A stretch of DNA of 64,000 nt, taken from NCBI GenBank assembly GCA_032622095.1, contig CP136063.1, forward strand, positions 81,261,980 through 81,325,979, given 5' to 3'. Shown here one piece after another: positions 546 through 37,600 of the stretch. The notes under the pieces were generated by a model. The model had not been told where the DNA came from. It did not search any database and was given only the letters and a program-made list of their open reading frames with translations. The position numbers and the translations under genes are program-made. The first letter of the stretch is position 1; each line of letters starts with the position of its first letter. Origin of the DNA: Siphonodentalium dalli. Its lineage: Eukaryota; Mollusca; Scaphopoda; Gadilida; Siphonodentaliidae.

Positions 546-643
546 CCTGTGGTCAATGCTGTCACAACACATGTGCTGACTTATTCACCACCAAGGAGTG
601 CACAGGAGAGTGTGTGAACAACACAACGTACAGCCATCCCGTG
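546..643 (+). CDS. PIK3R1: PIK3R exon: C-terminal half of a first C1 (zinc finger) domain
   Basis: Acceptor cttacag at 539-545, donor gtgagc at 644; enters in phase 1, leaves in phase 0. It reads [20 protein letters not shown], the C-x4-H-x2-C-x8-C tail of a C1 domain, in the same phase and at the same domain position as the C1 exon at 35452. The zinc ligands C, H, C and C are present. It joins in frame to the SAM exon at 2308 (…YSHPV then PIENW). The front half of this C1 domain must lie upstream, mostly outside the window. Membership of the gene is inferred from phase, strand and domain match. Confidence 0.7.
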
Positions 644-3600
644 GTGAGCCTTGGTTTAAACAATATTCTATGATCAAGACTGCAAATAGTCAGTCTGTCA
701 TTTGAAGAATGAGGTCCACAGAGGTTTAATTTAGTGACGCTATCCCGCACGGTGGGCTAGCATCACCAAATTCATCCTCTGGGAACCTCATTCTGCTTCT
801 CATTTCGGCCTAAGCAGAATGAGGTCCCCAGAGGGTGAATTTGGTGATGCTATTCCACTGTGTGGGATAGCATCACTAAATTCACCCTCTGGGGACCTCA
901 TTCTGCAAATGACAGACACCCTATTTGCAGGCTTGATTTTATTTGATCTAAGCAGAACAAAAGTACAAATAATACATGAAATATATGATAATATAAATGT
1001 TCAAAAGAGGATCGGGCAACAAGCTTTGTGGCTTTTTGTTAAGTCCTATCCTCAAAGCATAAGCATTCAAAATACAGCCAATTCTGCTCAGGCCTCATAA
1101 TGTGGTGCCGGACATTTGGAGTATGACGTCCATAGATAGTAGTTACGCTACCCGTGACCTGGGCTAGAATCACTAAATTCACACTCTGGGGACCTCATTC
1201 TGTTTAGACCTGCTTTTTCTCTGACAAAAAGCATTGTTTTGTTAATAATATCATCAGGATGCTACCGGGTATACTATTAGTTTATTCTTGGGGAAATTAT
1301 CATAATTTGATAAATGTTATTTCTAAATTATAACCTACAACGAAGACCGCCCGTCCCTTTAATTATATAAACATGCCTGGAAATAACTCAAATTTTGGAA
1401 CCAGTTAAAAAGACGGGCATCAATTGGTTCAAGTCTGAGCGGGATAGCATCACTAATTTCACCCTCTGGGGACCTCATTCTGCAAATGACAGGCACACTA
1501 AACTCAGACTTGAATTGGTTTGTGCCATTCATTAACAATTTTGTTACAGTCATAGATATTTTCAGAAAGTGTGTGCTACATGTATACTAGTATGTTATGG
1601 GACACCGAGATATTTTATAAATAAATTTTAGTTTTCTCAACTTTGTACATGTGCCACCTGACCTAACTGCAGTTTACAACTTTACAGTTGTATTGCGCAT
1701 TTTGTTGAAAGTGCTGATGCAATGTTTGTTTTCATTTTCGAACACACATGCAGCCCCCGTGTAAGTAAATAAACATGTTATCGAACCATTGAGAATATTG
1801 AAGTAGTTGTAAAAACACGCAGTTACAACATGTTACAAGTAATAATTGGAGAATTTTTATCAATGGCACATAAATGAGCGCTCGTCATTTGGGCTTTTCG
1901 GATGGGCATTCACCTATTTCCTGGCTTGTATATACAGTAATGCTCTAATTAATCGACCTCTTAACCAAAGCAGAATTATGGGTAACTTTTCAGGATTTTG
2001 TCGGAAATATGGCTTGTTGCCATTCATCGGAAAGCTCTCGGTGAGAGCTTTCCGATGAATGGCAACAAGCCATATTTCCGACTAAATCCTGAAAAGTTAC
2101 CCATAATTCTGCTTTGGTTAAGAGGTCGATTAATTAGAGCATTACTGTAAAGTATGTAAATAAGTGCTTGACATATTTATGGACAAACCAGTATGTTTAT
2201 GCTCAGACCCTGTCAGGAATATATCAAAAGTGCAAATTTCTAGGCACAGATTGATGCTCCAAACAGCCACAGACCATTAATTCAACGTTTTATGGTTTAA
2301 TTTACAGCCCATTGAAAACTGGACAACAAACAACATTACAGAATGGATGGCATCACTGAATCTCTATAGATATGCGGAACTCTTCAGAGAGAAGGGCGTA
2401 AATGGTAAACTATTGAAAACTATGGACCAGGATAAACTAAAGGTAAATAATACATGTTAAACCTTCCATGACTGGATCTTCCTGAATTTTGCAAAAACCC
2501 TGTGCCATTGCATTCTCTTATAAATGTGAGTCTCCCAATAGGGAGCCTTGCATATATAATAGAATGCATTGGCTTAATAATATTTACTATGATTTTGTAA
2601 CCCACGCATTCTTTTATATATATACGAGGCTCCCAAAAAAACTTATTTATCTGTTATCTGCTTTTATCACTTTAACGTCCCTCCAAATAAAAAAAAGACC
2701 ATTCCGATATACTTTTTAATTGAGTGGGAGTATTAATCCATTTAGTATAGAAAGGGTAAATGCGATGTTTGCATGTCGATTTCGTGATAAACATGAATTG
2801 ATTACACAGGGGAAATTGTATAATTGTAAGTGACGCAAAGCGATAATGGAGTCACAAAAGTTGCCTAAATCACATTTTTCCAGCTGTGAAGTACATTATT
2901 GAGGAACAGGTATTGACTAAGAAATTTATTACCTGCATTAAGTTTTTTATGTTATAAAGTTCCCCGTCAGAACATCAAAAAGTTCCAAGGTTTTGAACAG
3001 GATCAATATGGTCAGGTTCAGAGTAGAGATTCATGATATGATCTAATTGAACCTCTGTATACTTGTACTGGTGTCAGGGATCTGTTTTCTCTTTGAACCA
3101 TAGCGTTCAACTGTTTTTAGCTCACCCGAGACGAAGTCTCCGGTGGAGCTATAGTCATCACTCCTCATCTGTCCATCCGTCCATCCATCCGTCCGTCCAT
3201 CAACAATTCTTTAAACATCTTCTCCAGAACCATAAGGCCATATGGGTTCATATTTGGTGTGGATGTTCCCTTGGAGACTCACATTCAGATTTGTTAAAAT
3301 GAGGTCACCAAGTCAAATAGTTGCGAAGCCAGGGCCATAACTCTTTCTCTCCATAGTAATTTTTGTCCCTCGACGTTTCCGTCGGAGGACTATAGAAATG
3401 ACCCTCGTCCGTGCGTGCGTCCGTCCATCCGTGCGTCCGAGATTGAGTACCTTCATGGTGTAATCAACTCCTCCTACAGTTTTAAACGTAGAGATTTGAA
3501 ACTAGATTCAACTCGATGCTCAATTTACTAACCAAATAAAAAAATGGAAATATTAGGCAAAAAAAAGAAAAGTTTTTTGATTCTCGGGCAATTTTTTTTG

Positions 3601-12600: not shown

Positions 12601-15600
12601 CGAAACCTAGTTCTTTTCTCCCCAATAAATTTATTTCTAATTCATTTCGTTGGCAATAAGCTGCAAGGTAAATTGTAGTAATGTAGTCACGTGGCTTGAC
12701 ACATTAACCCTTTCTTGGCTGAATGGATTCTCCCATTCAGTTAGAAAAGTAGACACTAGAATGGTCTATCATAAATCTGGAGGGATGTTCAGGAAATATA
12801 AACAGACGGCCCATACAAAAACATACAATACAAGTGCAGAAGGATTATGTTCCTATTAGAGGGAATTAATTTCTCATTGATCAATGAGTATTTAATGAAG
12901 ACCACATTGTTAACATTTACATTATTTGGTGGCGAAAACCTTCACAATTGGGGAATACTAATTTGATTTTTACGTCAAGACACAATTTCTATGACTCTTT
13001 CCGAGGCATGTTCAAGTCTTTTTCACTTAATTTTTGTCCTACATGTTGTATATTGATTCCCGGAACGAGTTGGAAATATTCTGTGATTAACCTTTATAAT
13101 CTAAAATTCACCCTCTGGGGACCTCATTCTGCAAATGACAGGCACATTAAACTCAGGCTTGCTTGTTTCAAACATGTTAAACTTTTACACTAGAATCTAA
13201 ATTTAAAGTAAAATAGGTGTCATAAAAATTAGCTTACATCCCTGAATGCATCTTTGAATGTTACCCCATAGAGTTTTCCCAATTAACCTTGTTTTACTAA
13301 ATGGATTCTCCCACTAAGTTATAAAAGTATACATTGGAATTGTCTATTATTCATTTTGAGGGGTGTTCACAAAAACTGAGCTGACAACAAACAGACGAGA
13401 AGATAATATAAGTACAAAAGGATTCATATTCTTTGTTGGGAAATATTCAGATTATAAACGACCTGTATGAACTCATTTGAACATTTACTATATAAAGGGA
13501 ACTAATCGTCAATGAGTATTTATAATAATGCCCTTAATAATCGACTCCTTAACCACAGCTGAATTATGTTTAACTCTTCAGGATTTAACCGGAAATATGG
13601 CTTGTTGCCATTCATCGGAAAGCTCTCACTGATTTACCCATAATTCGGAAATATGGCTTGTTGCCATTCATAGGAAAGCTAGAGCTTTCCGATGAATGGC
13701 AACAAGACATATTTCCAACTATATCCTGAAAAGTTACCCACAATTCAGTTGTTATTAAGGAGTCTATTATTTAGGGCATTACTGTGGTATAGAGGGTTAA
13801 AATAAACCCGCTATGCATTGATTTGTTGAAACTTCTGCATGTACGAAATGCCCTTACTTATAGATTATATCCTCATAGCTTGCCTGCCATGCTGCATGCC
13901 CCCTCGTCAGATATTCATTATCCATACCATATTGTCAATAAAATGCATCTAAAAATAGATGATCTATATCGGAAGCCAATAAGTATTTGCATGTAGCAAT
14001 TGAAGACTTGTCAGTAATCAGAGAAAAAACGCAAATGAACTCTGTAACGAGTTCTCTGCCAGCATGTAGATCTGCACAATGATCTGATCTGCTATTTTTC
14101 GCCACTGATAAGCCCTGCACTTGATTTGCGCTAAATTGGACACAAATTGCCATAATTGCTGGCCACTCTGTTCCTACATACATACACTGGACAGAGTTGT
14201 TGAATTGTGGTATTGATTGTAGTTATTATTAATCTTCCCTTCTTTTATGGAAAAAAAACCCCCATAAAATTGCATGACGAGATATGACTTCCAATTTTTG
14301 TGTGTCAAATCATTCATACTATTTCAATAAAATTATTTTTGTCCCCCGACGTTTCCGTCGGAGGACTATAGAAATGACCCTCGTCCGTCCGTGCGTCCGT
14401 CCGTCCGTCCGTCCGTCCGTCCGTCCGTGCGTCCGAGATTGGGTACCTTCATGGTGTAATCAACTCCTCCTACAGTTTTAAACGTAGAGATTTGAAACTC
14501 TTGGATATTGTTCCTAACATGTTGGTGATTTGCAACATCTATAAAGCTAATCAAAAATATAATTTTTTCCATATTTTTGGGGGGGTTTTCGACTTAGAAA
14601 ATTTGGAACATTTTTGCCTTTTGGATGAGATTGGGTACCTTCATGGTGTAATCAACTCCTCCTACAGTTTTAAATGTAGAGATTTGAAACTCTGGGATAT
14701 TGTTCCTAACATGTTGGTGATTTGCAACATCTATATAGCTAATCAAAAATATAATGTTTTCCATATTTTTGGGGGGGTTTTCGACTTAGAAAATTTGGAA
14801 CATTTTTGCCTTTTGGATGAGATTGGGTACCTTCATGGTGTAATCAACTCCTCCTACAGTTTTAAATGTAGAGATTTGAAACTCTGGGATATTGTTCCTA
14901 ACATGTTGGTGATTTGCAACATCTATATAGCTAATAAAAAATATCATTTTTTCCATATTTTTGGGGGGTTTTCGACTTAGAAAATTTGGAACATTTTTGC
15001 CTTTTGGATGAGATTGGGTACCTTCATGGTGTAATCAACTCCTCCTACAGTTTTAAATGTAGAGATTTGAAACTCTGGGATATTGTTCCTAACATGTTGG
15101 TGATTTGCAACATCTATATAGCTAATACAAAAATATCATTTTTTTCGCGTTTGCATGCGTTTGTTCATCGGGTTGTTTTGTCCAAGAAATTTTGCGGTGG
15201 TTTGCAACATCTATATACTGTATAACATTGTTGCAAATAGTATCCTTCTAACAAATCCAATCATGAAGTTTACCACTCGAGTCGGGGGACATGTGGTCTG
15301 CGACCTTTTATTTATATTCAGTCAGTTCGTTTGTTTCAACTTTCACATTAAAAAAAATTGTGAGGGAGTTATGTCATCTATTATTTAGATGCCTTGATAA
15401 TCCAAGTGCAGAAGTCTTTAGGATTCCTATTCAGATTTTTGGACCGAATGTTCTAATAATAAAAGCAACAAACAAAAATCAACGGTACCTGTTTTAACGC
15501 TTTCTGTACTGAATGCATTGCATTCTCCCGTTAATAAATTGTTAAAAGTTGAAAACGGGCTTAACGGGTAATGTATATAAATTTCATGATTTATGAATTA

Positions 15601-18600
15601 AATCTGTGTATTAGTATATCAAGTATTTTTATACCTATTTATATTTTGTCACAAAACAGCACAAAGTACTAAATTTATCTGGACGCCTGAGAATTAGGTA
15701 CATGTAGGTGCATGCCACTGCATGGGCCTTTTACCCTTTCTGTACTGCCGGTAAATAGATTCTCCCACCCAGTTATAAAAGTATACACTGGGATGGTCTA
15801 TTATTCATTGGAAGGATGTACAAGTAATAAAAGCAGACGACAGACAGAAAAAAAGATAATACAAGTATATATTCATATTCATTAGTGGGAAATATTCAGA
15901 TCGTAAGTTCAACAAACGACATATGGTAGTTTGTAAAGAAAGGGTCCTTAACCACAGCAGAATTATGGGTAACTTTTCTGGATTTAGTCGGAAATATGGC
16001 TTGTTGCCATTCATCGGAAAGCTCTCAAATTACAAGCCATATTTCCAACTAAATCCTGAAAAGTTATCCATAATTCTGCTGTGCTTAAGGAGATGTTTAT
16101 TTAGGGCATTACTGTAGTCATCAATAAATGGTATTGTTCATTCAAAATGCTCTTATGTGTCTTATGTTTTTCAGAATTTTGGAATTGAAGACGATTTGCA
16201 TCAGAAATCTTTACTTGTTTGCATTGATGAGCTTTGTGGTCAGAACCCAGATTCAGTGAGTACAGCTATAGCTATTCATATGTACGAACCCTCCCTTTCT
16301 ATACTGAATGGATTCTCCCATTCAGCTGTAATAAGACAGTTCATTGGATTGGTCTATTATACATATGGAGGGGCGTCGTGATAATAGACATGCAAAAAGC
16401 ATATAGTTGCCGTTCATTAATTTGCATGAAATGTTAAGATAATAAGTTTGCTTGAATACTCTTTTAAAGTGAATTCCCCAAATTTGCTATGAAGTGCTAT
16501 GATAACTGCCTGAACTCCAGTCTCAAAGGTTGAACAAAATTGCTTCAGTTTGGGGTCTTCCTACAAAACCAAACTTAAATCCGCTGCTCATGTTTTTTTC
16601 ATGGTTTTCAAATTGTTGATAGAAATTTTTATAATTAACACTTTCCTGTGTCTTAGAATATGCTGATTCTCAGTCAATGCATTATGATTATTACAGTATG
16701 TACAAAGGCAATCATAATTAATCTTAGCTCAAATTTGCACACAAAAATCTACCGATATTAGACATAAAAAAATATAAGCCATAAGAAGATGACAAAATAA
16801 AAAAAATAAATTAAAAATATAAGTCTACCTACTGAACCTAATTTTTCTGTAAAGTCATGCATTTTATTTTCTTTGTCCCAATACAATTTGAAATTTATAA
16901 GCTCATCAAACTTACACTAGCATACAGTAATTCCCGAAGTATATTACCCTTTAACCCTTTACCCAACAAAATGGCCAAAAACGCCCAAATAAAGCTTCAA
17001 CAGCCTAAAATATCTGTCTCAATAACACCATACAAATATGGATATCATTGGAACCGGTTCATTGACCACATTGTGATGGTTACAGTTATGCCCTGTGCCA
17101 ATGCATTCTCTTATATATGCGAGTCGACCAAAGGTCGCCTCGCATATATAAGAGAATGCATTGGCCTAAAAGAAATCTTTTTTTACCATTTTTTCTTACA
17201 TTCTTTAACAATTTTATAATTTTTTCTTACATTTTTTAACAATTTTTATAATATTTTTCTACATTCTTTGACAATTTTATCATTTTTAATATGTGTTAAG
17301 CCAATGCATTCTCTTATATATGCGAGGCGACCTATGGTCGACTCGCATATATAAGAGAATGTATTGGCACAGGGCTGTTCTGTTGGGTAAAGGGTTAACC
17401 ACAGCAGAATTATGGGAAACTTTTCAGGATTTAGTCTGAGAGCTTTCCGATGAATGGCAGCAAGCCATATTTCTGACTAAATCCTGAACAATTCCCATAA
17501 TTCTGCTGTGGTTTAATAGTGGTCGATTATATAGGACATTACCGTACTTATATTCAAAGTTCAAATGAAAATAGTTTTTAATGATCGTTAACCTACTATA
17601 TTACACTATTTGGATAGAGGAAGAAATACTAGCTTTATAAATTTGACTTTTTAGTACCACCGATACTTATTTTCAGAGTGATAAAATTCAGCCTTCACTA
17701 TCGTGTCCCCCCCCAGGCCTGTATTAATGATGAATTATATGGATAATTTGTCATAAATGTGATATTTTGAACCGCACACAGCGGTCATGCCCAGGCTTAA
17801 AGCTAAAGAATATCCAAGCCTTGAAATAGGTGTGTCTGTCATTTGCAGAATGAGGTCCCCAGAGGGTGAATTTAGTGATGCTACCCCGCATAGCGGGCTA
17901 GCATCACCAAATTCACCCTCTGGGAACCTCATTCTGCTGAGGTGTAAGCAGAATGAGGTTCCCAGAGGGTGAATTTGGTGATGCTAGCCCGCTATGCGGG
18001 GTAGCATCACTAAATTCACCCTCTGGGAACCTCATTCTGCAAATGACAGACACACTATTTCAATGCTTGAGAATATCCCCACCCCTTCTATTGTTAGCTG
18101 ACTTCTATCTTTGACTGCTTTTCATTGATATTTTATTACTACTTTATTGCAATGTGATATTAAAAACCCAAGTTCGGTTAAATATTTTGCCATTTTCATC
18201 CCTGATCCCAAAGGCTTTCATTGTCTATACTGAGCTCGACACCCTTGTTTTTTTTCTGATAATGGATTGCTCTCTTGTTCCCTCTTGGTGAGTGCATTTA
18301 TAACTGTCTTGTATAGTAATGCCCTAAATAATCGACTCCTTAACCACAACAGAATAATGGGTAATTTTTCAGGATTTAGTCGAAAATATGGCTTGTTGCC
18401 ATTCATCGGAAAGATCTCATTGAGAGCTTTTTCTGATAAATGGCAGCGAGCCATATTTCCGACTAAATCCTGAAAAATTACCCCATAATTCTGCTGTGGT
18501 TAAGGAGACGATTATTTAGGGCATTACTGTAACTACCTGGTAAGTGGTTTCTCCCTTTCAATTATAAAAGTATGCATTGGAATGGTCTGTTATTCATTTG

Positions 18601-21600: not shown

Positions 21601-24600
21601 GCCATATTTCCGACTAAATCCTGAAAAGTTACCCATAATTCTGCTGTGGTTAAGAAGTCGATTAATTAGAGCATTACTGTAGTCAGTTAACCCTTTACCC
21701 AACAAACCGGCCAAAACCGGCCAAATAAAGCTTCAACAGCCTAAAATATCTTCGGTCTGTCTCAATAGAACCATACAAATATGGATATTGGAACCGGCTC
21801 CTTGACCACATTGTGATAGTTACAGTTAGCCCTGTGCCAATGCATTCTCTTATATATGCGAGTCGACTTATATATGCGAGTCGACCATAGGTCGCCTCGC
21901 ATATATAAGAGAATGCATTGGCCTAAAAAAAATCTTTTTTTTACCATTTTTTCTTACATTCTTTAACAATTTTATAATTTTTAATGTGTTAAGCCAATGC
22001 ATTCTCTTATATATGCGAGGCGACCTATGGTCGACTCGCTTATATAAGAGAATGCATTGGCACAGGGCCGTTCTGTTGGGTAAAGGGTTAATGCGGTGAT
22101 CGTATCAGAGCGCATGTTCATAATCAGTTGGAAAACAAACTCTTATTTTCCTAATTTCAAACATTTTCTTGAGAAAATCCATTTGGAAATTATTTTTTAA
22201 TACTAATCAAAGGCGCAAGATTCAGATCTTTCTGAGAAATTACATTATAAATATTACAAAGAAATTCGAGAATAAATTGGAATTAAATTTTCCACTCAAA
22301 AAATTAATAAGACATTGGCATTTATCATGGCATTTACATATCCCTTGTATTTTAACGTAATTTCAGTGTTGCAATGTCAATAGTAATTTGAAATTTGAAC
22401 TTATTGTCTGAACATTTCCTGAAGAAACTACTTAGTACAGAAAGCATTAAATGTGCGAGGAGAACATATGTGACCCGCCATATCAAATCCAGTCGTAAGT
22501 CGGGATTTTTTTACCCCGTGCCAATGCATTCTCTTATATATGCGAGTCGACCATAGGTCGCCTCGCATATATAAGAGAATGCAATGGCCTAACAATTTTT
22601 TATCATTTTTTTTTTTAAATAAATGTTTCTTACAATTTTTAGGACATAAAATAAAAAACATCCATTACCCTGCAGGGAGCCCCTTGCATATATATATAGA
22701 AGCATATAGAAGAGTGTTGTCTGCTCATGTTTGTCTGGGGCTCTGTATGGGTGAAATTATAAAATTGTTAAAGAATACAAGAAAAAATTATTAAAATTGT
22801 AAAAAATTGTTAGGCCAATGCATATATAAGAGAATGCATTGGCACAGGGTAAAAAAAATAAGCAATATCGGTCAGTATGTGACTGATTGAACCCACAAAA
22901 TGTCATCTGATCATTAAGAAAATATGTGGTATGGTGTTAGCCAACTGCCTGAGGCACATGGTGTGTTGAGGAGAAAGTCTGTGGCTAACCACATGAGATG
23001 AATGCCTTCACCAAACCATTAAGGAGGGTATCCTGGGGAGTAATGGCCACATGGTAATTCTTGTTAGTATGGCTCGATTTAATTGGACCACCTGATGAAT
23101 GAGGGTAACAATCTAGGCCACTGGGCAAAGTCCTACTGCCTCAGTCAGTTTTTACTAATGAATACAGTAATGCTCTTAAGTAATCCACTTCTTAACCACA
23201 GCAGAATTATGGGTAACTTTTCAGGATTTAGTCGGAAATATGGCTTGTTGCCATTCATCGGAAAGCTCTCCCTGAGAGCTTTCTGATGAATGGCATGCCT
23301 TTTATTTAATATTTTTTGTGCATAGGATTTACCTATCTCTGTTAACAAGTATTCAAGATTCATTAATCCGAATCAGACCTGTTAAGTCTTAAAAATGGCC
23401 ATCCAGGATATCTTGGCGGGAGATATGCCCATATATGCTCATGTTCCAAAAAAAAAATTAAATTGATTTCTGAATCCATCTTTTTATAATTTTTTCTGTT
23501 TGTGCTTATTTTATAAATATATACACCTTAATAAAACAGTAATGAAAACACAGAGTTTTATACAGCTATTGTGAGTGAGATACATGCATGTTTATATAAA
23601 GTAATACCAGGGAACATAGAATGCGAAATCATCAGCATGCATTCAAAGGTTAAGGACACCTACAGTAATGCCCTAAGTAATCGACTCCTTAACCACAGCA
23701 GAATTATGGGTAACTTTTCAGGATTTAGAGCTTTCCGATGAATGGCAACAAGCCATATTTCCGACTAAATCCTGAAAAGTTACCCATAATTCTGCTGTGG
23801 TTAAGGGGTTGATTACTTAGAGCATTACTGTGCTAACTTCCTGTTCTAATTCCAGTTTTAAAATAGAGCTTTCTCCATTCTATTGTGTTCTATTTGCACA
23901 GGAGTGCCAGACATTGTCATTCATGCTCGCTTATGTAATCCTACCTGTAAATCCTGTTATTAAATCTATTGCCTATATTATAACCACAGCTTGTGTGAAA
24001 AATAGTTAGCCTTAATTGACTCACTGCTGATAAGTACTGAATGATGATGAATGTGAAAATACTCTTTACTAACAGTTCATTTAAATTATGAGCAGTATTG
24101 CTTAGTGTGGAAGTTACAGCAATTTCCTAAATAATCGACTCCTTAACCACAGCAGAATTATGGGTAACTTTTCAGGATTTAGTCGGAAATATGGCTTGTT
24201 GCCATTCATCGAAAAGCTCTCACTGGGCGTTAGCCATAGTAGAGATTCATAGCATCATCTAGCTCAACACATGAATCAATGGGATTCAAGTTCGGTTATC
24301 AAAGGGTTAATTATACCCCCTTTTAAAAAAAAGGGGGGTATACTGTTTTGCACCTGTCCGTCCGTCCGTCCGTGCGTCCGTCCGTGTGTGCGTGTGTCCG
24401 TGAGTCCGTACGTCCGTCCGATGTCTGTTCGTGTCATAACTTGAACAGTAGTGCTCGGATCTCAATGAAATTAGGTATGGATGTTCACTATTATGAGGAC
24501 ATTTAAAAGAGGGTTCCATCGTTTTGTTTGGATTTTCCATTCTAGAGTTATTCATCTTTGTTTATCTGGAAATAGTGGCTTTTTTGGTACGTCTGGTGTC

Positions 24601-27600
24601 TGTTCATGTCGTAACTTCAACAGTTGTGCTGGGATCTCAACCAAATTTGGTGTGGATGTTCACAACTATGAGGACATTAAATAGAGGGTTCCATCGTTTT
24701 GTTCCGATTTTCCATTCTAGAGTTATTCATCTTTGTTTATCTTGAAATGTTGGAGTTTTGGTCCATCTGGTGTCTGTTCATGTCATAACCTGAACAGTAG
24801 TGCTCGGATCTCAATGAAATTTTGTATGGATGTTCACTACTATGAGGGCATTCAATAGAGGGTTCCATCGTTTTGTTCGGATTTTCCATTCTAGAGTTAT
24901 ACATCTTTGTTCATCTGGAAATGTTGGCTTTTTGGTTCGTCTGGTGTCTGTTCATATTGTAACTTCGACAGTTGTACTGGGATCTCAATGGGATTTGGTA
25001 TGGATGTTCACTACTATGAGGACATTAAAAAGAGGGTTCCATCGTTTTGTTCCGCTTTTCCATTCTAGAGTTACTCATCTTTGTTCATCTGGAAATAAAT
25101 GTTGACTTTTTGGTCCGTCTGGTGTCTTCATGTCGTAACTTCAACAGTTGTGCTGGGATCTCAATGGAATTTGGTATAGATGTTCACTGCTATGAGGACA
25201 TTCAATAGGGGGTTCCATTGTTCTGTTCTGCTTTTCCATTCTAGAGTAATTCATCTTTGTTTATCTGGAAATGTTGGCTGTTTGATCCATCCGATGTCTG
25301 TTCAGCTCATAACTTGAACAGTAATGCTCGGATCTCAATAAAATTTTGTATGGATGTTCACCACTATGAGGACATTTAATGGCACATTCAAATGTTTGTT
25401 TTTTGTTCTATAGTTATTCATCTTTGTTTATATGAAAATGCTGATTTCTGGGTCCATGTCTGAGTCTAGCCATCATAAGTTATAGATGTGCCCACACTAG
25501 GCGGTATGCCACGAGGGGGTATGCACCGGACGACAGTCCATCTCTTGTTAAAAGTACATTTATGCATCATTGTTTGATGTTAGGCAAGAGAGAATGATTG
25601 GTGATGCAACCTGTCTGATAGGCTGCAAAAGTCACTGATTTGTTTTAAAGCTGGATTACATTGCCAGACAACTGTCTTGAGTAAGCAGTAGGGATAAATT
25701 GTGAGCAGCAATCCAGTGGTGTTGCGAATAATTAACCAACTTATGAGTTATCTCTATTCTAGTTCTCATGACTTGACACTAGTTTGCACTTTAAAAGCTG
25801 CTCCAGTCTCATGGGATTAGCATTAAACAGTAATGCCCTAAATAATCGACTCCGTAACAACAGCAGAATTATGGATAATTTTTCAGGATTTAGTCGGAAA
25901 TGTGGTGGTTAAGTATTATTTAGAGCATTACTGTATTATGAGCTGCAATACAGTGGTGTTGCGAATAATTAACCAACTTATGAATATACACTCTGTAGTC
26001 TGCACTTTAAAAGCTGCTCAGGTCTCATGGGATTAGCATTATAAAATCACCCAAATTTACATTATTTTGTCAATTTTGATGGACTGTTGGCTTTTCAAAG
26101 TTATACCTAAGATTTCAAATTATAAATCGGTTAATACCAGTAAGGAATTTTTATAAACGAATTAATATGGTCATGCAGGATAATGAAAAATAATTTTGTG
26201 TTGGTCCCCTCTTTATATGACTTGCGAAACATCAATGATATATTATCTGTTGAGTCATCCAAGCCTGAGTTTAAAGTACCTGTCATTTGCAGAATGAGGT
26301 CCCAAAAGGGTGTCTCTGTCATCAAATTTAATTCCCTGGGGTCAATATATACCACGTAATGCCTTCTGTCTTATGGTCTTACGCCAACGGCAAGAGGTTA
26401 GTCCCATATACTCCTTGGCAGCTATGAGTAAATTATTTTATAGGATCCTTGATCCGGGGTATCATGCAAGAGGGTTATCATATAAACCACTTGATGGCAG
26501 CTGTGCAAGTGCTGCAGATTAACCTATTTCAAAAGCAAAGTACATGCCAGCAGGCACTGTCAATTAACCAAGATTCTGAAGGAGACTATAGACTTAACCC
26601 TTTCTTTACTAAAATTTATCTATCTGTGTTCTACAGTAATGCCCTAAATAAGCGACTCCTTAACCACAGCAGAATTATGGGTAATTTTTCAGGATTTAGA
26701 TGGAAATATGGCTTGTTGCCATTCATCGGAAAGCTCTCATTGTCTAAAAATACTATGGCTTCCAATATTTTTTCCAACAAACTATATTGAATGAAGATTT
26801 GAAAAGTTTTGTTATTAAATATATGCCATTAAATACGCCAAAGAGCCTTATTTATCTGGGACTATTTCTTTACGTGGGCAAACAATGCGAACAATCCCAA
26901 GTTGGATATTATTGGACATTATTAAAAAGTAGGTCAGCATTTTTTAATGGTAAATCATAAAATGGAAAATCTGCTTTGCGTTGTCACTAGATATATGCTC
27001 AATCAGTCCAAAAAGACATGAAGTATTCTAGGGTTTGTAAATATTGAGTAATATTGTCTTGAAAATTAACAGTGAATTCCCCATTGAAATGTTGCCACTT
27101 TACCTCCCTCTTAAGGGGAGATGCACATTTTGCATAAATCCAGCCAAAAATGGCAAGAGATTTTCAAACAATTTATCTGAATCTAACTCACATATCATCA
27201 TTTTCTTAGTATGTTGAATCTGAGCAATTAAGAGACAACAACAATGGATTTTAATACATTGAGAGGTTGAAAACTCCAATTTATTTTTTGTCGCTTTAAG
27301 TATCAACTGCTAGGAGAATTAATAATTTCACACAAAACTCCAATAACCAAATAGCTTATTATTTTGGCTCTATGAGAGGAGGCTTAAATTAATTTGTATC
27401 ATAATGTTGAGTTAGATTTTTAATTAAATAATATAGCATCATACCCCCATATTTTATAAAGAAGTATAAAGCAGTCACAAATATTCCAGCCCAATGAAAA
27501 CAAATGTTGATATACAGTGTGGTCCACTCAAGCAGGGAGCAATCAACAGGAATTAGGCCACAGTGTTAAGAGATATGGTGGTCAGCTTTAACTTAATTAT

Positions 27601-28647: not shown

Positions 28648-28680
<33 letters not shown>

Positions 28681-31600
28681 TTTTAATAATTTATTCTTAT
28701 ATTCTTTAACAGACTTATTTTGTAGGTTTAGGGCCGATGAGATCGGTCCCTGGCACTCAAAGGGTTAAATATATTGTTTCAATAGAATATAAGCAAAAGT
28801 TAAATAAATTGTTTATTTGTTTCTATTCTCTTGATGCCCGCATTATTTTTCAAAGCTACTATTGGACAGATAGGGTGACTTTTTCAATCACTATATAAGC
28901 AAAAGTTAAATAAATTGTTTAATAAAATATAAGCAAAAATTAAATGCATAGGGACGTGGTGGTAACATTGGTCTGAGGAGGAGGTTACCCCAACTTTGTT
29001 CAAAATTTTCAACAGTTGAGAATCGCTTGCCTGGCACAGTTGAAACTTTCAGACCAAAAATGGTTTGGATTGTTCTTTTGTTTGAATTTCCAATCAGTAT
29101 TTGGTGTGAAGTTTGTTTTATTTCGGCTAAAAGTGAAATATTTTCCTATCTCTGGTTAACTTTTTGGAGTGGAAAATTCCACCCCAAGAAGAAGGGGTGG
29201 GGGTGAGGGGGTGGTGGTGCAGATAGCAATTGGGAATTTTGTTTGGGTCTGGAATGGTTGCATTAATGCAGTTGGTAATTCTTATTTTGACACTTAACCC
29301 TTTGGATCCTCCTCCTATTGGCTCCTAAAATTATACATCATACATACTATTATTAATTTGGAGGGTACGTGTTCAGAAAATAAAATCCGACGATAGACAG
29401 AAAAACAGATAATACAAGAGTAGAAAGATTCATATCCATTATGCGTTTTAAAACTTAGACAGAACTGGATCCAATTTCTAAAGTCTTTTGGCTTTGTGGA
29501 GTTTCAGTAATGCTCTAATTAATCGACCTCTTAACCACAGCAGAATTATGGGTAACTTTTCAGGATTTAGTCGGAAATATGGCTTGTTGCCATTCATCGG
29601 GAAACTCTCGCCGAGAGCTTTCCGATGAATGGCAACAAGCCATATTTCAATATATCCTTGTGCAGATATGTTCATATTAGACCTAAATATTGACAATTGT
29701 TCATGTTGGACTTAATTGATTTTGGAATAAGCCCATTGTGGACTTATACCCATTATTCCATTGGATGGTGCTGGCCACAGTGAAAGCACATATACATATA
29801 TAAAGAGCGAACATCTGGTGCTGCAACATATCCTCGTGCAAATACATGTAGGTTCATATTGGACCTAAATATTCACATTGGTTCATATTGGACTTATCTG
29901 ATTCTGAAATAGGCCCATAGTGAACTTTAACCCTTTGAGTGCCAGGGGCCGATATTATCGGCCCTAAACCTACACAATAAGTCTGTTAAAGAATATAATA
30001 AAATATATTAAAATTGTAAAAAATTGTTAAAAAAAAAAATAAAAAAATAATTGTTAAGCCAATGCATTCTCTTATATATGCGAGGCGACCTATGGTCGAC
30101 TCGCATATATAAGAGAATGCATTGGCACAGGGTATATGGGTTGATACAAAAATCGGACCTGGCACTCAAAGGGTTAATATCTAAAAGTTTTTAGGCCATT
30201 ACTGTACATTACGAATACCTATACAGAGAAGCACCTGGCAAATGCCGTTGTAACCTCCGCCAGGGTACCCCAAGTCACCACACCAAATTTGGTAGAAATC
30301 GGACCAGCAGGCTGGGAGAAAAATCCAGCCAGACGGACAGGACAGACAGATCCTACTCTTTTATTTATATATAGATTCTTTAATAAATTAGCTGAGATAT
30401 GTTTAAAAACTTACAGACAGAACTGGATCCAATTTCTAATGTCTTAAGGCTTTTTGTTTGGCTGATCAGTGCTATTAGCATAAAAAAGCTGACATCTGCC
30501 ACTCTGACCTGGGTAACTGTTGCGTAAAACATTACACGGAGCATTTTCCCACGCTTCTCTAGCCAGGTGCTTCTCTGTATAGGTATTCCTAATGTACAGT
30601 AATGGCCTAAATAATCAACTGCTTAACCACACAAGAATTATGGGTAACTTTTCAGGATTTAGTCGGAAATATGGCTTGTTGCCATTCATCGGAAAGCTCT
30701 CAGTGAGAGCTTTCCGATGAATGGCAACAAGTCATATTTCCGACTAAATCCTGGAAAGTTACCCATAATTCTGCTGTGGTTAAGGAGTCGATTATTTAGG
30801 GCATTACTGTATATTACAAGAACCTGGAATTTTTATTATTTTGGTGTCTGGCAAAATCTGGTTATTTCAAAACTTTGTTTTTTCATTGCAGCGCCCATAT
30901 GCATCTGGTCTGCCTCCACCAGGCGATTGTATGAATATGGAAGGTAAGTTATATATTTCATTAATTTAAAGATGCATAATCTGAATTATCACCCCAAAAT
31001 TACTATTTCTTCGGCTTCGGGGGTAAAAAATATTTGATTTGAGTCGAGAAACCCACCCATCAAAGCTCAGAGTGATCAGATTTCAAAAAATCAATTTTTT
31101 AAATTTGTTATTTCTCGAGATATGTAATTTTTGGTGGCCTGGCAAATATTTGTAAAGCCAACCAAATTGCAGATGAAGATGGATAACTCTAAAATATTTA
31201 GTGGCCTTGGGTGTTAGATATTTGACAATCCGGCCAAATATCTGTGAACAAAATATTGATAAATAACACGTTTCGTGCAATTTTATACTATAGTTGACTG
31301 TGGTTAGCATTATTTTTTGGCAATTAATTGATTATGATAACTGAAGCGAAATGCTGTTGGAATCTGATATGGAGACCATCAAATCAGATTATGTACCTTT
31401 AAATGCTTGTTATTATTGTTTGTTTTGTTGTAATTTTGTCATTATTGAGATACAGTGTGAGTTAACAAAAAAACACATTCTTCTCTCATTTCACATACCT
31501 GAAGTTTATGACGTCTATAAATTATTTTTGTTTCAATAATATTCTCCAAATAATTCAATTTGTCCTTTCTATATCATTTTTGCAAATGTTTCTGGTTTAA

Positions 31601-34600
31601 TTCTTGTACATAACTTAAACACTAATCGCTGTATGATTGATCAGTTGTGGATTGTGCTAATTGTTTTTTGATTGGTCCATTTCAGCTGCTGGTTGTGCTG
31701 CGTCTGAACATAGGTTTGCCGAATATAGCTTTTCTTCCATGCAGAGATGCAACATTTGTGATAAATTCTTATATGGTTTGATGAAGCAAGGACTGCAATG
31801 CCGTGGTGAGTATCAAAACTCCAATCAGGGTTTACAGTAATGCCCTAAATAATCGACTCCTTAACCACAGCATAAATATGGGTAACTTTTCAGTGAGAGC
31901 TTTCTGATGAATGGCAACAAGCCATATTTCCGACTAAATCCTGAAAAGTTACCCATAATTCTGATGTGGTTAAGGAACCGATTATTTAGGGCATTACTGT
32001 ACCTCCCTTGATGAATCGGAAAGACTGCTGCTACTGGCGACATTTTACCAATATTTGGTGGACTTCCATGATATTAACATATCAACATTCTGCCTTTATT
32101 AAGCACACAAAATATCGGACACAATTTGTGTAATTTCGTACCTTAAGTTTGGAAAGTCCCACTAGAACCAAAGAATTATATTGAGAAATGGTGAGATTTG
32201 GTTCTCTGATTATTTTATCAACACAAATGTCTAAACGCACATGGACGGCATTGTCATGACAACACGCATGGCAAGTCAAACACAAGAATTCTAATTTGCT
32301 GCAATTTTGACGAGCAGCTTGCGAGAATCGTCAACAAAACTACTGCCTTGATTCTCCATTCTGTCATTAAGTTTTTAGTGCAGGAATTGTTCTCAACCCA
32401 CATTGGAAATTTGACTTTGGGGCGATCAGTTTTTGCCATTTTGTCTGGAAAACCTATCGCATCCGTACGTATGCACTCACAATTTTTAATTCACGGTTTG
32501 CTAATATTACCACTCGTCCCTCTAGTCAAAAGGTTTACGGTCACAGTAATCTTTGATTCAATATTGAACTATTTGAAGGTATATATAGAACATTTCCCAT
32601 CTCAGTTAAATTATGGGCATACGAAAGTGTAACTGGACATAGGTCTATCACTATAAGTTCTCTCTCTATGTTTTCCTCTTGGGAAGAAGTGGACAGTCAC
32701 GGACAGTTGTTTATGTTACACAGATGCCTAACAAGTGAGGCCTATATAAAGCAGTTACCTGAGACAGAGGAAATGATCAATGTTTTATCAAGACAGTCTG
32801 TGGGGGCTCAGAATTGTAGAATTGTGAGTGTCTTCCTGGTTTGCTTGTGAATCTTGTAAACAAGCATTCCAAGTTGAGTGAACCCAAGCCTTGAAATAGT
32901 CGGTCTGTCATTTGCAGAATGAGGTCCCCAGAGGGTGAATTTAGTGATGCTACCCCGCATAGCGGGCTAGCATCACCAAATTCACCCTCTGGGAACCTCA
33001 TTCTGCTGATGTGTAAGCAGAATGAGGTCCCCAGAGGGTGAATTTGGTGATGCTAGCCCGCTATGCGGGGTAGCATCACTAAATTCATCCTCTGGGGACC
33101 TCTTTCTGCAAATAACAGACACACTATTTCAAGGCTTGAGTGAACCCCAGTCTAAGTAAAGTAATGCCCTAAATAATTGACTCCTTAAACACAGCAGAAT
33201 TATGGGTAATTTTTCAGGATTTAGACGGAAATATGGCTTGTTGCCATTCATCGGAAAGCTCTTAGTTATGAATGGCAACAAGCCATATTTCTAAATTTAA
33301 ATCCTGAAAAATTACACTCATTAGGAACCAGCATCATAGAAAATGAGCAGAATCACTTAAGTAGGGGTGAATATGTGAGTAGGATGTAACTGAAAGTCCT
33401 TCCTGTTCACACCAAGTGGTGTCAGTGTTTGGATGCTGAAAATCTGATGTGGATCTTCGAAATATGGTTTCTGAATCGCTGTCTGGGCCAATATTTTTAT
33501 TATCTGACATGGAGTGACAAGTTGTTCATGTCATGGTTACATAGATTCAAATGGAATGTTCTGGGGTTTTTCCCATATTTACTATGAACGATGTAAACAA
33601 CATGCTAATTATAATGAAAATGAGTTTATGGCTCGAGCCATAAACCAGGGTTTCCGCCAGGGGAAAATAAATGAGAAATTTTTTGTATTTGTCACTGAAA
33701 AGTAGTCATTTCCTTGCACCTGAGATACTCACAAAGCAATCCAAAGCTACATATATTACGCAAGTTGATAATTTCCGTGGGTGCATTAATTCTGTTGATG
33801 GTACAGTGATCACCATATTACACACGTGAGACCGCCGTCTGATTGAAGACTAAATAAATGAATAAGCTACAAGTTACAGTGTTTACAAATTTATAAGATT
33901 CCGACAGGTATAAGTAAACACTAAAAAGCGTCTATGCATTGACCAATAATACCTAGCAAGGAGAATTGAATTAAGTATTTCCAAAAATTTCAACAGGTAG
34001 CTTCTGCGAAAATGAAATCCAAAGGATATTATTATTCTGTCAATAGTAAAACTATTTGTGCGCTGTGACGTCATACTGCAAAAGATATTTACAGCGGCGT
34101 AATATGAATGGTAGTGAAGTCGTTCCAACTCGGAATGCGTAGCTTGTTCAATAGTCTGCATTAGTCCAACAATTGTAGTGAGGACCACTGCCATGGAACA
34201 GAACTTTGGCCCCTGTGTTATGAAATATAATTGAGTTTTGGCAGAAAATGTGAACACGTGCGTTGTTGTTTATACAATTGTGCTTGGTGCCTCACGCGGG
34301 ATAACAAAACTATTATTGACCTTACTTTGACTTTATCTCCATATTGGGGGATATATTTTCCACGGGATCTCCGAGCGTGGGTAGTTTCATCCACAGAAAT
34401 CCTGTGCGCAAAATATCCATACTCAGCAGTCCGGCATTCTTTGATGTTACCATGACATTTTCTTATTTGTAATACGCTGTATACAACGTCACTATTTGAC
34501 TGCACACCAAACATTGCATTGTAGCTTTGAAGCTTTTATTTCAAAGGGTTATACTGTACCGATAACATACTATGCTCAATTGACCTGCCTTTTCACCAGT

Positions 34601-37600
34601 ATTCTGTTTGACCCTCGAACTCCCATTGCAGACAGATTTTTTTTATGATAGATTGCTATCGAATTTAGGTACATGTGTGTCTCAAACAGATCATCAGCGA
34701 GGGGAATTAGGCCGTTCCACGGACTCTGAGCCGTAGTAACGGAAACCCTGCATAAACTCATTTTCATTATAATAACCATGTTGTTTTACATCATTGATAG
34801 AGCACATGAGTGTATTTTGCACTTATTCCTGGCTCAAATGCATTAACCCTTTCAGTGCCAGGGGCCGATCTCATCGGCCCTAATTTACGGTCTGTAAAAT
34901 CGGCCCTAAAAAAATTGTTGTTTTTTTTAGATTTGTTTTTGTTTTGTTTTTGGTTGAATTTGTTTTGGGTATGCTTAAGCATGCTATAGCGAATTTAAAA
35001 ACAAACTGGATAAAACCTTAGGGGCATGTTATAACTCAAAACTATCACCAAGTATTCATAGTAGTAATTTTGATGCCCATGAAAAACGTAAGATTCCCTG
35101 GCACTAAACCTACAAAATAAGTCTGTTAAAGAATATATGAAAAAATTATTAAAATTCTAAAAAATTCTAAAAAATAATAACAAATTATGAAAAATTGTTA
35201 GGCCAATGCATTCTCTTATATATGCGAGGCGACCTATGGTCGACTCGCATATATAAGAGAATACATTGGCACAGGGTATATGGGTTGATACAAAAATCGG
35301 ACCTGGCACTCAAAGGGTTAATTAGTTGCATGTAATGTATTCTGTTGAGGGTAGTAGGAGATGGGCCCCATAAATGGCTGGATTTGGGTACAGTCCCCTT
35401 TAACCTATACCCATTATCTTACGTTTACATGTATGCCTTCTTATATTACAGAATGTGGAGTGTGTTCACATAGATTCTGTACCTCATCAATTCACTCCAA
35501 CACTCCATGTGACCTTCCAAAGATCGAGCGAATTAGGCGACCAAGTTTCTCAAAAAGTAAGTTAAAAATGAATATTCATGCTTGTTCACTAGAGAATAAG
35601 CCGTTCTTGAGTTTATTTTGTGTATCAATTTTGTCATTTGATGTGCAGTTATGCAAATTTTATATCGTCTGATTGCTGTTGGAAGCTGGTTGGACCTTCA
35701 CCGACATTTTAGAATCTAGGCATGGACTATGAATCATCTGCACAAGCCTTGAAATAGCGTGTCTGTCATTTGCAGAATGAGGTCCCAGAGGGTGAATTTA
35801 GTGATGCTACCCCGCATAGCAGGCTAGAATAACCAAATTCACCCTCTGGGAACCTCATTCTGCTGAGGTGTAAGCAGAATGAGGTCCCCAGAGGGTGAAT
35901 TTGGTGATGCTAGCCCGCTATGCGGGGTAGCATCACTAAATTCACCCTCTGGGGACCTCATTCTGCAAATGACAGACGCGCTATTTCAAGGCTTGCATCT
36001 GCATGTACTCGTAAAACAGCGACCCTAAATATGTACTAATATAACTGAATATGTACTGCATTAGAATATAATTTTTTTAGGAAAATCCAAATGGGACAAA
36101 ATTGATAAATTTGTGTTTCCATGGCAACAATGTCTAATAATCGGAATACTTGGAAACTTTACATTAAATAGTGCATATGGTGAATAATTTAATAACTACC
36201 TAAAAGTTTACATTGGTTTATGGAAACACTTGTAATGGCCAACATTTCCATATAATGTTAACTCTTGGATCAAGTTGCCAAAGAACAGGCTCGTTCTGTC
36301 TGTTGTCTGCTTATAGCATTTTGAAGATCCCTACATTTGCAGAGTAGACCATTCCAATGTATACTTCTAAAACTGAATGGAATAATCCTTTCAGTAATAA
36401 AACTGTTAATCCTATAGGACATGTTCAGATATTAAGTTCAATAAATCACCTTATTATCTGAACATTTCCCTGCAATAAATAGGACTCATTCTGTACTTGT
36501 ATTATCTGCCGTCTGCATATTTTTCTGAAAACCAGATGAATAATAGGCCAATCTTCATAGATCACATGAGTGGCTGGATTTAGTGTACAGCCACCCTTTA
36601 AGTACTTTCACATTTACACACCCAAAATGTTGGAAGATTAGAATCAAACATAACCTGTTCATGAAAATAATTATAGTCAACAATGGGAATTGTTAATGTC
36701 AGAAATACCTGTTTGGATATCAATATCATATTTCCCAAGGACATGTCTCGTGTTATATGAATACAATACACCTACCACATAGATTACGTCAGTATGACGT
36801 CAATTCCTTATATAGCAGTTGCCAGCTTTGCTTTTCATTATATTTTATACCCGCGTGTCAATGATAGTGAATAAATATAGCCACATCGTAATCTTTTTTC
36901 GTCACATACTTTTGAATTCTTTTTTTGCTACTCCAGTTTCATTCTATGCTGACAAATGAACTTTTGTTGGTCTCAAATATCCACCCTTTCAGATTTCTGG
37001 TGACGAAATCTATAAATATCTACTAGTAGCTCGTAAGAGCAATTGAAGAATAATAAAATAAAATGGTGACTTGACATGTTCCGTGTGATCTCATATATTG
37101 CATTTTGAACATTACACTATTAAGCCTTAAATATGGTGCTGTGGATATTGTCACCAAATTCATCCTCTGGAGACCTCATTCTGCATGGCCTCATCTGCTA
37201 TGGGAGATCAAGACACAGATTTAAATTCCCCGATAGTGATGGTGATATGCACCCATTGAGCATCTCGATTATGCCATGTGTCATCTGACATTTTGGGAAT
37301 ATAGATAAACTAAACTAAAAAAGAAAAAAGAAATTTTCTAAAGAAACTATAAAAACTTAATTTGATAATAAAGAAACTTTCCAGAGAAGATAAGGCCTAA
37401 GCAGAATGAGGTCCCCAGAGGGTGAAATTAGTTATGATAGCTCGCTGTTTGGGATATGGTCACTAAATTCACCCTCTGGGGACCTCATTCTGCAAATGTC
37501 CAGCACAATATTTTCAGTATTACCATCATCACATGTCTAATGATTTGAATGTGCTACAGTAATGCCCTAATTAATCGACTCCTTTAACCACAGCAGAATT

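Follow-up and report, generated by a model that had tools for sequence, protein, structure and literature searches.

Domain organisation of the p85 gene

Siphonodentalium dalli very probably carries, as one gene, a class IA PI3K regulatory subunit (p85) with the order C1-SAM-C1-RhoGAP(BH)-nSH2-iSH2-cSH2, and we consider this account of the single p85 gene detected, taken together with the mechanism proposed below, to be the probable one. In the window, the 64,000-nucleotide stretch of DNA analysed here, our exon map confirms that the exons for the second half of the first C1 (C1 #1), the SAM, a linker and the second C1 (C1 #2) precede those for RhoGAP, nSH2, iSH2 and cSH2 on the + strand (Table 1), and it shows the p85 domains, their order and phase-compatible exons across the C1-RhoGAP junction. 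The first-pass annotation had proposed this same-strand arrangement, which the exon map and Pfam bear out, and the coordinates that it gave (546, 35556, 45931, 48635) fall precisely on exon boundaries.

In the joined protein, Pfam recognised SAM_2 over both SAM halves (9.4e-16), C1_1 over both halves of C1 #2 (1e-10), RhoGAP (4.3e-26), an iSH2 predicted to bind p110 (PF16454, 1.1e-35) and SH2 on either side of the iSH2 (first half of nSH2, 5.4e-9; cSH2, 5.3e-14), while the second half of nSH2 was recognised by alignment to p85-alpha. The joined C1 #1 matched Pfam C1 at 1.1e-5 and 25.6 bits, just below the curated cut-off of 26.5, and the two C1 stretches together reached 2.3e-15. The C-terminal half matched p85-alpha chains at 6e-69. 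A whole-genome search located iSH2 exons over the cut-off only here, so that a single p85 gene was detected, spanning more than 110 kb with large introns; a p110 adaptor-binding domain of class IA type occurs elsewhere in the same genome (C4:266454990, 7.4e-28). No Pfam family was matched above its cut-off by ten long ORFs taken from the two strands, and Rfam found nothing at gathering thresholds. A comparison of muscle myosin, made with one of the 21 C4 copies, places this genome closest to molluscan myosins: the best chains (1dfk, 1b7t, 2ec6, 2os8, 3i5f) are from scallop and squid, and the tarantula chain 3jbh is not one of them. The mollusc haemocyanin family PF14830 and the arthropod cuticle family PF00379 each returned no match, which does not establish that either is missing from the genome, so that myosin is the stronger guide to lineage.

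Table 1. Exons of the S. dalli p85 gene, in window coordinates
Feature	Position	Strand	Phase, evidence and remarks
C1 #1, earlier part, exon a	-50962..-50898 = C3:81211017-81211081	+	outside window, ~51 kb upstream
C1 #1, earlier part, exon b	-15684..-15637 = C3:81246295-81246342	+	outside window, ~16 kb upstream
C1 #1 second half	546..643	+	phase 1 in, phase 0 out; Pfam C1 on joined domain
SAM first half	2308..2442	+	phase 0-0; SAM_2 match
SAM second half	16175..16255	+	phase 0-0; SAM_2 match
Probable linker exon, least certain part	30892..30943	+	phase 0-1; splice scores and phase only
C1 #2 first half	31686..31805	+	phase 1-1; C1_1 match
C1 #2 second half, then linker to RhoGAP	35452..35556	+	phase 1-1; C1_1, chimaerin alignment
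RhoGAP/BH exon 1 (NHVFGADLL...), no methionine	45931..46041	+	Pfam RhoGAP, chimaerin alignment
RhoGAP/BH exon 2, arginine-finger position IYRISA	47317..47397	+	chimaerin alignment
RhoGAP/BH exon 3	48504..48635	+	chimaerin alignment
RhoGAP/BH exon 4	50000..50198	+	chimaerin alignment
BH end and proline-rich stretch	51629..51741	+	alignment
nSH2 exon 1 (N1)	52303..52519	+	phase 2 out; Pfam SH2
nSH2 exon 2 (N2)	54022..54206	+	phase 1 in by homology; p85-alpha alignment
iSH2 exon 1	54741..54982	+	Pfam iSH2, p85-alpha alignment
iSH2 exon 2	55956..56132	+	Pfam iSH2, p85-alpha alignment
iSH2-cSH2 linker exon	57305..57370	+	p85-alpha alignment
cSH2 exon 1	58375..58527	+	Pfam SH2, p85-alpha alignment
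cSH2 exon 2 and stop codon (60277)	60058..60277	+	p85-alpha alignment

Exon joins and the 5' end

Phases agree in 18 of the 19 joins of the 20-exon chain, which is continuous from the first C1 exon to N1, although four of these 18 joins carry no independent weight, since the exons that they involve (the upstream pair and the linker) were sought by phase. The sole mismatch, of one base, falls inside nSH2 between N1 and N2 (52519 to 54022), meaning that the reading frame is broken within nSH2 as assembled.

To gauge chance matches, the patterns of the two exons that begin C1 #1 were sought on both strands of the window, of the 80 kb upstream of it and of nine other loci, 409,870 nt in all over both strands, with L010 left out. 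When splice-score cut-offs were applied, each pattern occurred once, at its upstream site only; with the cut-offs removed, the second pattern gained one extra match, on L013. Neither strict C1 patterns nor the C1 profile detected the start of C1 #1 upstream, because the domain is split over these two further exons. Between 16.3 and 31.7 kb, the linker exon, which lacks homology support, is alone among phase 0-to-1 candidates in having two splice scores of at least 6. The upstream sequence examined for the first C1 #1 exons yielded no convincing initiator exon or start codon for p85. In a motif scan of 144 kb, the start and end motifs of SH3 never occurred together on the + strand, and matches to the strict start (2 on the + strand vs 2 on the - strand) and to the end (3 vs 5) were not above the reverse-strand level, for which reason a hidden upstream SH3 was rejected.

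A probable single gene across the C1-RhoGAP junction

There is no methionine in RhoGAP exons 1 to 3, and translation of the RhoGAP must therefore begin in a coding exon further upstream; among phase-matched exons, that of C1 #2 is the best partner by a wide margin. This, with the agreement of phases, supports the earlier proposal of one p85 gene with C1-SAM-C1 at the place of the vertebrate SH3. The same exons could be divided between two neighbours on the same strand, the first a C1-SAM-C1 gene that stops near 35.6 kb and the second a p85 that starts from one or more exons of its own in 35.6-45.9 kb. The junction intron is 10.4 kb long, the join is read from genomic sequence, and read-through past the 35556 donor would give a short tail and then a stop, all of which would suit such a division. 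Yet that donor scores 10.4 (rank 2 of 16), the C1 exon ends in phase 1, the phase that the RhoGAP exon requires, and C1-linker-RhoGAP matches chimaerin as a single unit. Initial-exon candidates of all phases in the intron numbered 9 vs 16 on the reverse strand at a donor score of at least 6, and 7 vs 4 at a score of at least 7. Between 35.6 and 45.9 kb no internal phase 1-to-1 candidate exon was found (three had other phases), and the one initial exon ending in phase 1 has 5 residues and is equalled in count on the reverse strand. Moreover, SAM and two C1 domains have been reported for a shrimp p85 (PMC12817958). Given the phases, the alignment to chimaerin and the finding of no strong competing exon, we judge two separate genes very unlikely, one weak two-exon in-phase start (38507-38542 plus 38613-38661, 28 residues) remaining in their favour.

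Within a single gene, alternative promoters might produce, besides a long form with C1-SAM-C1-BH, short ones like p50/p60 that start near nSH2, making the front end a feature of one isoform. Vertebrate PIK3R1 routinely yields short forms from internal promoters, and the large introns and length of the S. dalli gene would accommodate them, but with no methionine in RhoGAP exons 1-3 or in the listed N1 frame a short form would require its own first exon; we regard this arrangement as conceivable, though somewhat improbable. That the gene is decaying, with the one-base mismatch in nSH2 a true frameshift and the product stopping inside nSH2, is more improbable still than a division into two genes. 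N1 does end in phase 2 where N2 requires phase 1, but the flanking exons are open and conserved, this is the sole iSH2 gene found, and its loss would abolish class IA regulation while the p110 adaptor-binding domain persists. An assembly error is a simpler account of the mismatch than decay.

The RhoGAP domain and its relation to chimaerins

The C1-linker-RhoGAP of the S. dalli p85 and beta2-chimaerin (1xa6) form one unbroken alignment (query 7-265, E 3.1e-28), which ranks above all RhoGAP-only chains listed (best 2.7e-18). As in chimaerins, a C1 stands directly before the RhoGAP with a short, similar linker, and intron positions in both domains are common to the two. In chimaerin an SH2 precedes the C1 and the RhoGAP is the last domain, whereas in the S. 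dalli p85 a SAM and another C1 come before this unit and SH2-iSH2-SH2 after it. The genome also contains a separate chimaerin (C7:162.64-162.66 Mb), in whose C1 the intron position matches that of the phase-1 intron in C1 #1 and C1 #2. The second half of C1 and the start of RhoGAP share one exon in this chimaerin but are split in p85, and the chimaerin has an extra intron late in RhoGAP.

The p85 RhoGAP keeps the arginine (IYRISA) and the K/R (KKYLRELP), with lysine at the conserved asparagine of chimaerin and histidine for proline; the p85-alpha chain 6mrp has leucine (YLLDLP) where the S. dalli p85 and chimaerin have arginine (YLRELP). In a FastTree analysis of 12 RhoGAP sequences, namely this p85, the S. 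dalli chimaerin, six other RhoGAP genes of the same genome and four PDB chains, the S. dalli p85 joined the p85-alpha BH with a local support of 0.93. The six genes were drawn from 35 exon matches, with L024 and the C3:124.59 gene left out, and two of the six sequences begin with a few residues translated from intron. The p85 RhoGAPs fell near ARHGAP5 and the chimaerins, not specifically with the latter, and we therefore make no claim of descent from chimaerin. A shared, chimaerin-specific intron before the arginine finger was dropped as a link. Of four other RhoGAP genes read by eye, two (C5:57.15 and C2:217.45) seem to have a phase-1 intron at this site or adjacent to it and two (C9:188.89 and C4:269.33) have none; it is also absent from the C3:124.59 gene. 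Its presence in RhoGAP genes other than chimaerins indicates that it is old and shared.

C1 domains and proposed mechanism

The zinc ligands of C1 #2 are spaced as Hx12Cx2Cx13Cx2Cx4Hx2Cx9C and those of C1 #1 as Hx15Cx2Cx13Cx2Cx4Hx2Cx8C, with a first spacing longer than usual. Typical DAG-binding C1 domains have a loop consensus of Pro11, Gly23 and Gln27. Compared by eye with this consensus, C1 #2 keeps the glycine and glutamine with methionine for proline (SSMQRC), and C1 #1 keeps the proline and glycine with valine for glutamine. Neither has the full consensus, and judging from these residues lipid binding by either domain is doubtful. Shrimp p85 expressed alone is mainly cytoplasmic (PMC12817958), which, together with the loop residue missing from each C1, argues against a constitutive membrane anchor. 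The exon for the second half of C1 #2 (35452..35556) has two further dispersed copies.

In the mechanism that we propose, the C-terminal half would work as it does in other p85s, the iSH2 binding p110 and the SH2 domains restraining p110 and bringing it to phosphotyrosine. C1 #2 and the RhoGAP may act as a chimaerin-like unit that binds Rho-family GTPases but has little or no GAP activity, in which C1 #2 would give at most a low-affinity, stimulus-dependent contact with membrane (DAG) or serve as a lid. C1 #1, without a key loop residue, would be structural or protein-binding, and the SAM may replace the oligomerising and scaffolding job of the vertebrate SH3/proline-rich contacts. The roles suggested for C1 #2, RhoGAP, C1 #1 and SAM have, as a set, a little short of an even chance of being right.

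Comparison with other p85 proteins and origin of the front end

Textbook p85 is SH3-BH-SH2-iSH2-SH2, with a BH of unsettled role that is nearly inactive in human. Vertebrate p85-alpha and p85-beta (PIK3R1/2) have BH-nSH2-iSH2-cSH2 and a proline-rich stretch after BH in common with the S. dalli p85, but begin with SH3 and PR1 in contrast to C1-SAM-C1. Insect p60 and nematode AAP-1, adaptors of class IA p110, share SH2-iSH2-SH2 with it and are not known to carry a RhoGAP, C1 or SAM. Dimers of vertebrate p85-alpha form mainly through SH3-PR1, with additional BH-BH contacts (PMC7458397).

The first-pass annotation had treated the front end as peculiar to this lineage, a view not supported by the report of SAM and two C1 domains, without counterpart in human p85, in the p85-alpha of a crustacean, Penaeus vannamei (GenBank MH397365.1), cloned as a full-length ORF (PMC12817958). 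The likeness to the S. dalli p85 is one of description: the SAM is called N-terminal, and the order of SAM and C1 is unstated in the text of that paper. Among the open-licence papers listed in our searches, a p85 with SAM and C1 is reported only for shrimp; passages with similar terms in two other papers concern the SAM of SHIP2 (PMC8797975) and that of ACK (PMC9127371), and those of PMC3238295 give domain names only.

The occurrence of the same modules in shrimp and mollusc p85 suggests that the C1-SAM-C1 front end may be older than crustaceans, and that the human p85 form is one version among several. The position of BH behind a C1, in the fashion of chimaerin, offers an origin for the BH domain, and a C1-BH p85 predicts that PI3K regulation outside vertebrates could respond to SAM partners and to input from Rho-family proteins or DAG. 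More speculatively, and with the balance in our estimate against it, long p85 might ancestrally have had the C1-SAM-C1-RhoGAP front, in protostomes or in bilaterians as a whole. The human BH would then be a relic of a C1-RhoGAP signalling unit in which SH3 took the place of the lost C1 and SAM, and many invertebrate PI3Ks might also be tuned by DAG/Rho-GTPase input and SAM oligomerisation. The authors of the shrimp study speculated that SAM and C1 help virus-specific interactions (PMC12817958); since a mollusc genome has both, these domains need not be a virus-tied peculiarity of crustaceans.

The p85 gene and its front end

In the window (C3:81261980-81325979 of a 2.23-Gb genome in 9 contigs), + strand exons were defined by combining reading frames with splice sites. 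The C-terminal half of the gene is that of a p85 subunit: iSH2 and cSH2 score 1.1e-35 and 5.3e-14 against Pfam, and query residues 1-331 of this half align to p85-alpha chains in the PDB at 6e-69. RhoGAP (the BH domain), the second C1 (C1 #2) and SAM score 4.3e-26, 1e-10 and 9.4e-16 against Pfam, and in a tree of 12 sequences the RhoGAP groups with the BH domain of p85-alpha (local support 0.93). The profile search places iSH2 exons over the cut-off at one site in the genome, the third listed match, on contig C5 (5e-4), being under it.

The exon at 546-643 reads, in translation, as the second half of a first C1 (C1 #1). The 80 kb upstream of the window was scanned by splice score for candidates with a phase 1 end, and two of the three exons listed supply the missing parts of this domain. 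Once joined, it shows Hx15Cx2Cx13Cx2Cx4Hx2Cx8C as its zinc pattern, scoring 1.1e-5 (25.6 bits) against C1_1, just under the cut-off of 26.5. With splice-score cut-offs, the patterns of these two exons occur once each, only at this gene, in a two-strand scan that took in the window, its 80-kb upstream flank and nine further loci (409,870 nt with both strands counted; stretch L010 omitted); without the cut-offs, the second pattern has one extra match. SAM comes directly after C1 #1. The splice scores were trained on 17 window exons, those recognised first, and the scores of these exons do not count as independent evidence; the linker exon and the upstream pair lie outside the training set, yet they were sought by phase. 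Taken together, the exons predict a complete C1-SAM-C1 front end. No convincing start-codon exon was found for the gene, and SH3 was looked for by motif and exon-candidate scans only.

Features in and around the p85 gene (negative positions lie upstream of the window)
Feature	Position	Strand	Remarks
C1 #1 upstream exon	-50962..-50898	+	ends ...EPVLCPI + first base of Cys codon
C1 #1 upstream exon	-15684..-15637	+	remainder of split Cys, then NDYIWGCGLVGSKCE
Linker exon	30892-30943	+	17 residues; sole phase 0-to-1 candidate between SAM and C1 #2
Copy of 33508-35777	C3:299.42 Mb	+	~98% identity
Copy of 33508-35777	C3:299.85 Mb	-	~98% identity
Palindromic repeat copies	706-906, 17845-18040, 20955-21150, 32914-33109, 35772-35966, 40438-40633		near-tandem pairs
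Tandem array	14435-15144		192 bp x 3.7
Tandem array	24412-25380		174 bp x 5.6

Junction with the RhoGAP domain

The first-pass annotation had placed front-end exons, with phases that join in frame, upstream of the RhoGAP exons on the same strand, and this is borne out: 18 of the 19 joins across the exon chain are in phase, the only exception lying between the two nSH2 exons, N1 and N2. RhoGAP exons 1 to 3 lack methionine and must therefore be preceded by a coding exon with a phase 1 end. The C1 #2 exon has such an end, and its donor scores 10.4, the second highest of 16. Between 35.6 and 45.9 kb, the exon-candidate scan yields no internal candidate running from phase 1 to 1 and three in other phases (two 0 to 1, one 1 to 2). 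One initial-exon candidate there ends in phase 1 and is 5 residues long, and a weak initial-exon pair (38507-38542 and 38613-38661) would fit the RhoGAP phase; over all phases, there are 9 initial-exon candidates, compared with 16 on the reverse strand, at a donor score of at least 6, and 7 compared with 4 at a score of at least 7. Against PDB chains, C1-linker-RhoGAP aligns unbroken to beta2-chimaerin (query 7-265, 3.1e-28) and to N-chimaerin (query 8-267, 1.8e-25), both of which outrank RhoGAP-only chains (best 2.7e-18). As judged from the exon chain, the C1-SAM-C1 front end is very probably joined to p85.

N1, the first half of nSH2, ends at 52519 in phase 2 and N2, starting at 54022, needs phase 1 by homology, which leaves their join one base out. 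Both are conserved despite this mismatch, which most likely reflects an allele or an error in the assembly, because no second p85 gene was found. A tandem repeat at 58507-58721 (period 55, ~3.8 copies, 75% matches) takes in the end of cSH2 exon 1 and its splice donor, and apparently yields further degenerate copies of that donor sequence.

The genome's own chimaerin (C1-RhoGAP; C7:162.64-162.66 Mb; stretches L011 and L012, 162.643-162.657 Mb) matches both C1s of the p85 gene in the position and phase of its C1 intron, and has three phase 1 RhoGAP introns at p85's places or within a residue. It differs in carrying the C1 second half and the RhoGAP start in one exon, which the p85 gene splits by an intron, and in one additional intron late in RhoGAP. 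Descent of p85 from chimaerin, as read from introns, was dropped: other RhoGAP genes also seem to carry the intron that precedes the arginine finger, and the shared introns therefore support real exons rather than such descent.

A 2.27-kb stretch (33508-35777) containing the C1 #2 second-half exon is repeated at two dispersed places, at one of them in two pieces; the other front-half exons searched had no match at either copy. The right end of the stretch abuts the 35772-35966 copy of a palindromic repeat of roughly 103-110 bp (GCAGAATGAGG...CCTCATTCTGC), which looks like a MITE-type element. In the tandem array at 14435-15144 there is an open frame of 200 residues, whose match to DUF7886 is sub-threshold.

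Predicted function

A profile search places a p110 adaptor-binding domain at C4:266454990 (7.4e-28) and gives another, weak match at C4:285252914; with this domain in the genome, iSH2 should pair with p110 in the usual way. The C1 lipid-binding consensus includes Pro, Gly and Gln. The loop of C1 #2 keeps Gly and Gln and lacks Pro, and that of C1 #1 is without Gln, so that C1 #2 would make weak, regulated contact with lipid at most. The finger Arg is retained in the RhoGAP, as is K/R in the LRELP motif; in the NL..FGP motif, Lys replaces Asn and His replaces Pro. Given the usual roles of these residues, the domain may be a binder of Rho GTPases that has little GAP activity, in agreement with the very low activity given for p85-alpha in PMC7458397. 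By analogy with ARHGAP29, whose C1 region is proposed to aid RhoA recognition by RhoGAP in a modelling study (PMC12240320), C1 #2 might alternatively help in Rho GTPase recognition.

N-terminal dimerisation of vertebrate p85-alpha is ascribed mainly to SH3-PR1 contacts in PMC7458397, and SAM would be the natural replacement for them. The solved chain nearest to this SAM is liprin-beta-1 (3e-15 for three SAM stretches together, i-E 0.002 for the best of them), with liprin-alpha, SARM1, CNK2 and DGK-delta also near, and these chains name no partner for the p85-gene SAM.

Age of the domain set

A p85 with SAM and two C1 domains is already in print, since a shrimp study (PMC12817958, J Virol 2025) reports it in p85-alpha of Penaeus vannamei from a cloned ORF; GenBank MH397365.1 is cited, and the amplified full-length ORF is presumably the sequence analysed. 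In that study, shrimp p85 expressed alone in cultured cells is mainly cytoplasmic, and the authors term the SAM/C1 domains unique structural features and speculate that the virus adapted to its crustacean host. No other report of a SAM/C1-bearing p85 was found in the open-licence literature searched; two papers with look-alike terms concern other proteins. With the same domain set in S. dalli and shrimp, the simplest reading of these two species, compared by domain content, is that the C1/SAM front end arose before the split of their lineages.

Muscle myosin

Two muscle-myosin stretches, from a single gene copy, were compared with PDB chains. The first scores 4.3e-52 with 2ec6, against 2.2e-43 with 3jbh and 5.8e-38 with the best Myosin-4; the second scores 7.3e-40 with 3i5f and 6.8e-36 with 1dfk, against 2.8e-34 with Myosin-6 and 1.8e-31 with 3jbh, while 2ec6 (3.5e-34) and 2os8 (4.3e-34) fall just below Myosin-6. 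The best-matching chains of both stretches are molluscan, and the animal is accordingly taken for a mollusc or a close lophotrochozoan. The arthropod cuticle and mollusc haemocyanin families had no match in the genome profile search, a result that does not in itself show their absence. On contig C4 (158-292 Mb), one muscle-type myosin head exon region (profile about 376-435) accounts for 21 of the 85 matches listed, which suggests that myosin heavy-chain genes have expanded greatly.
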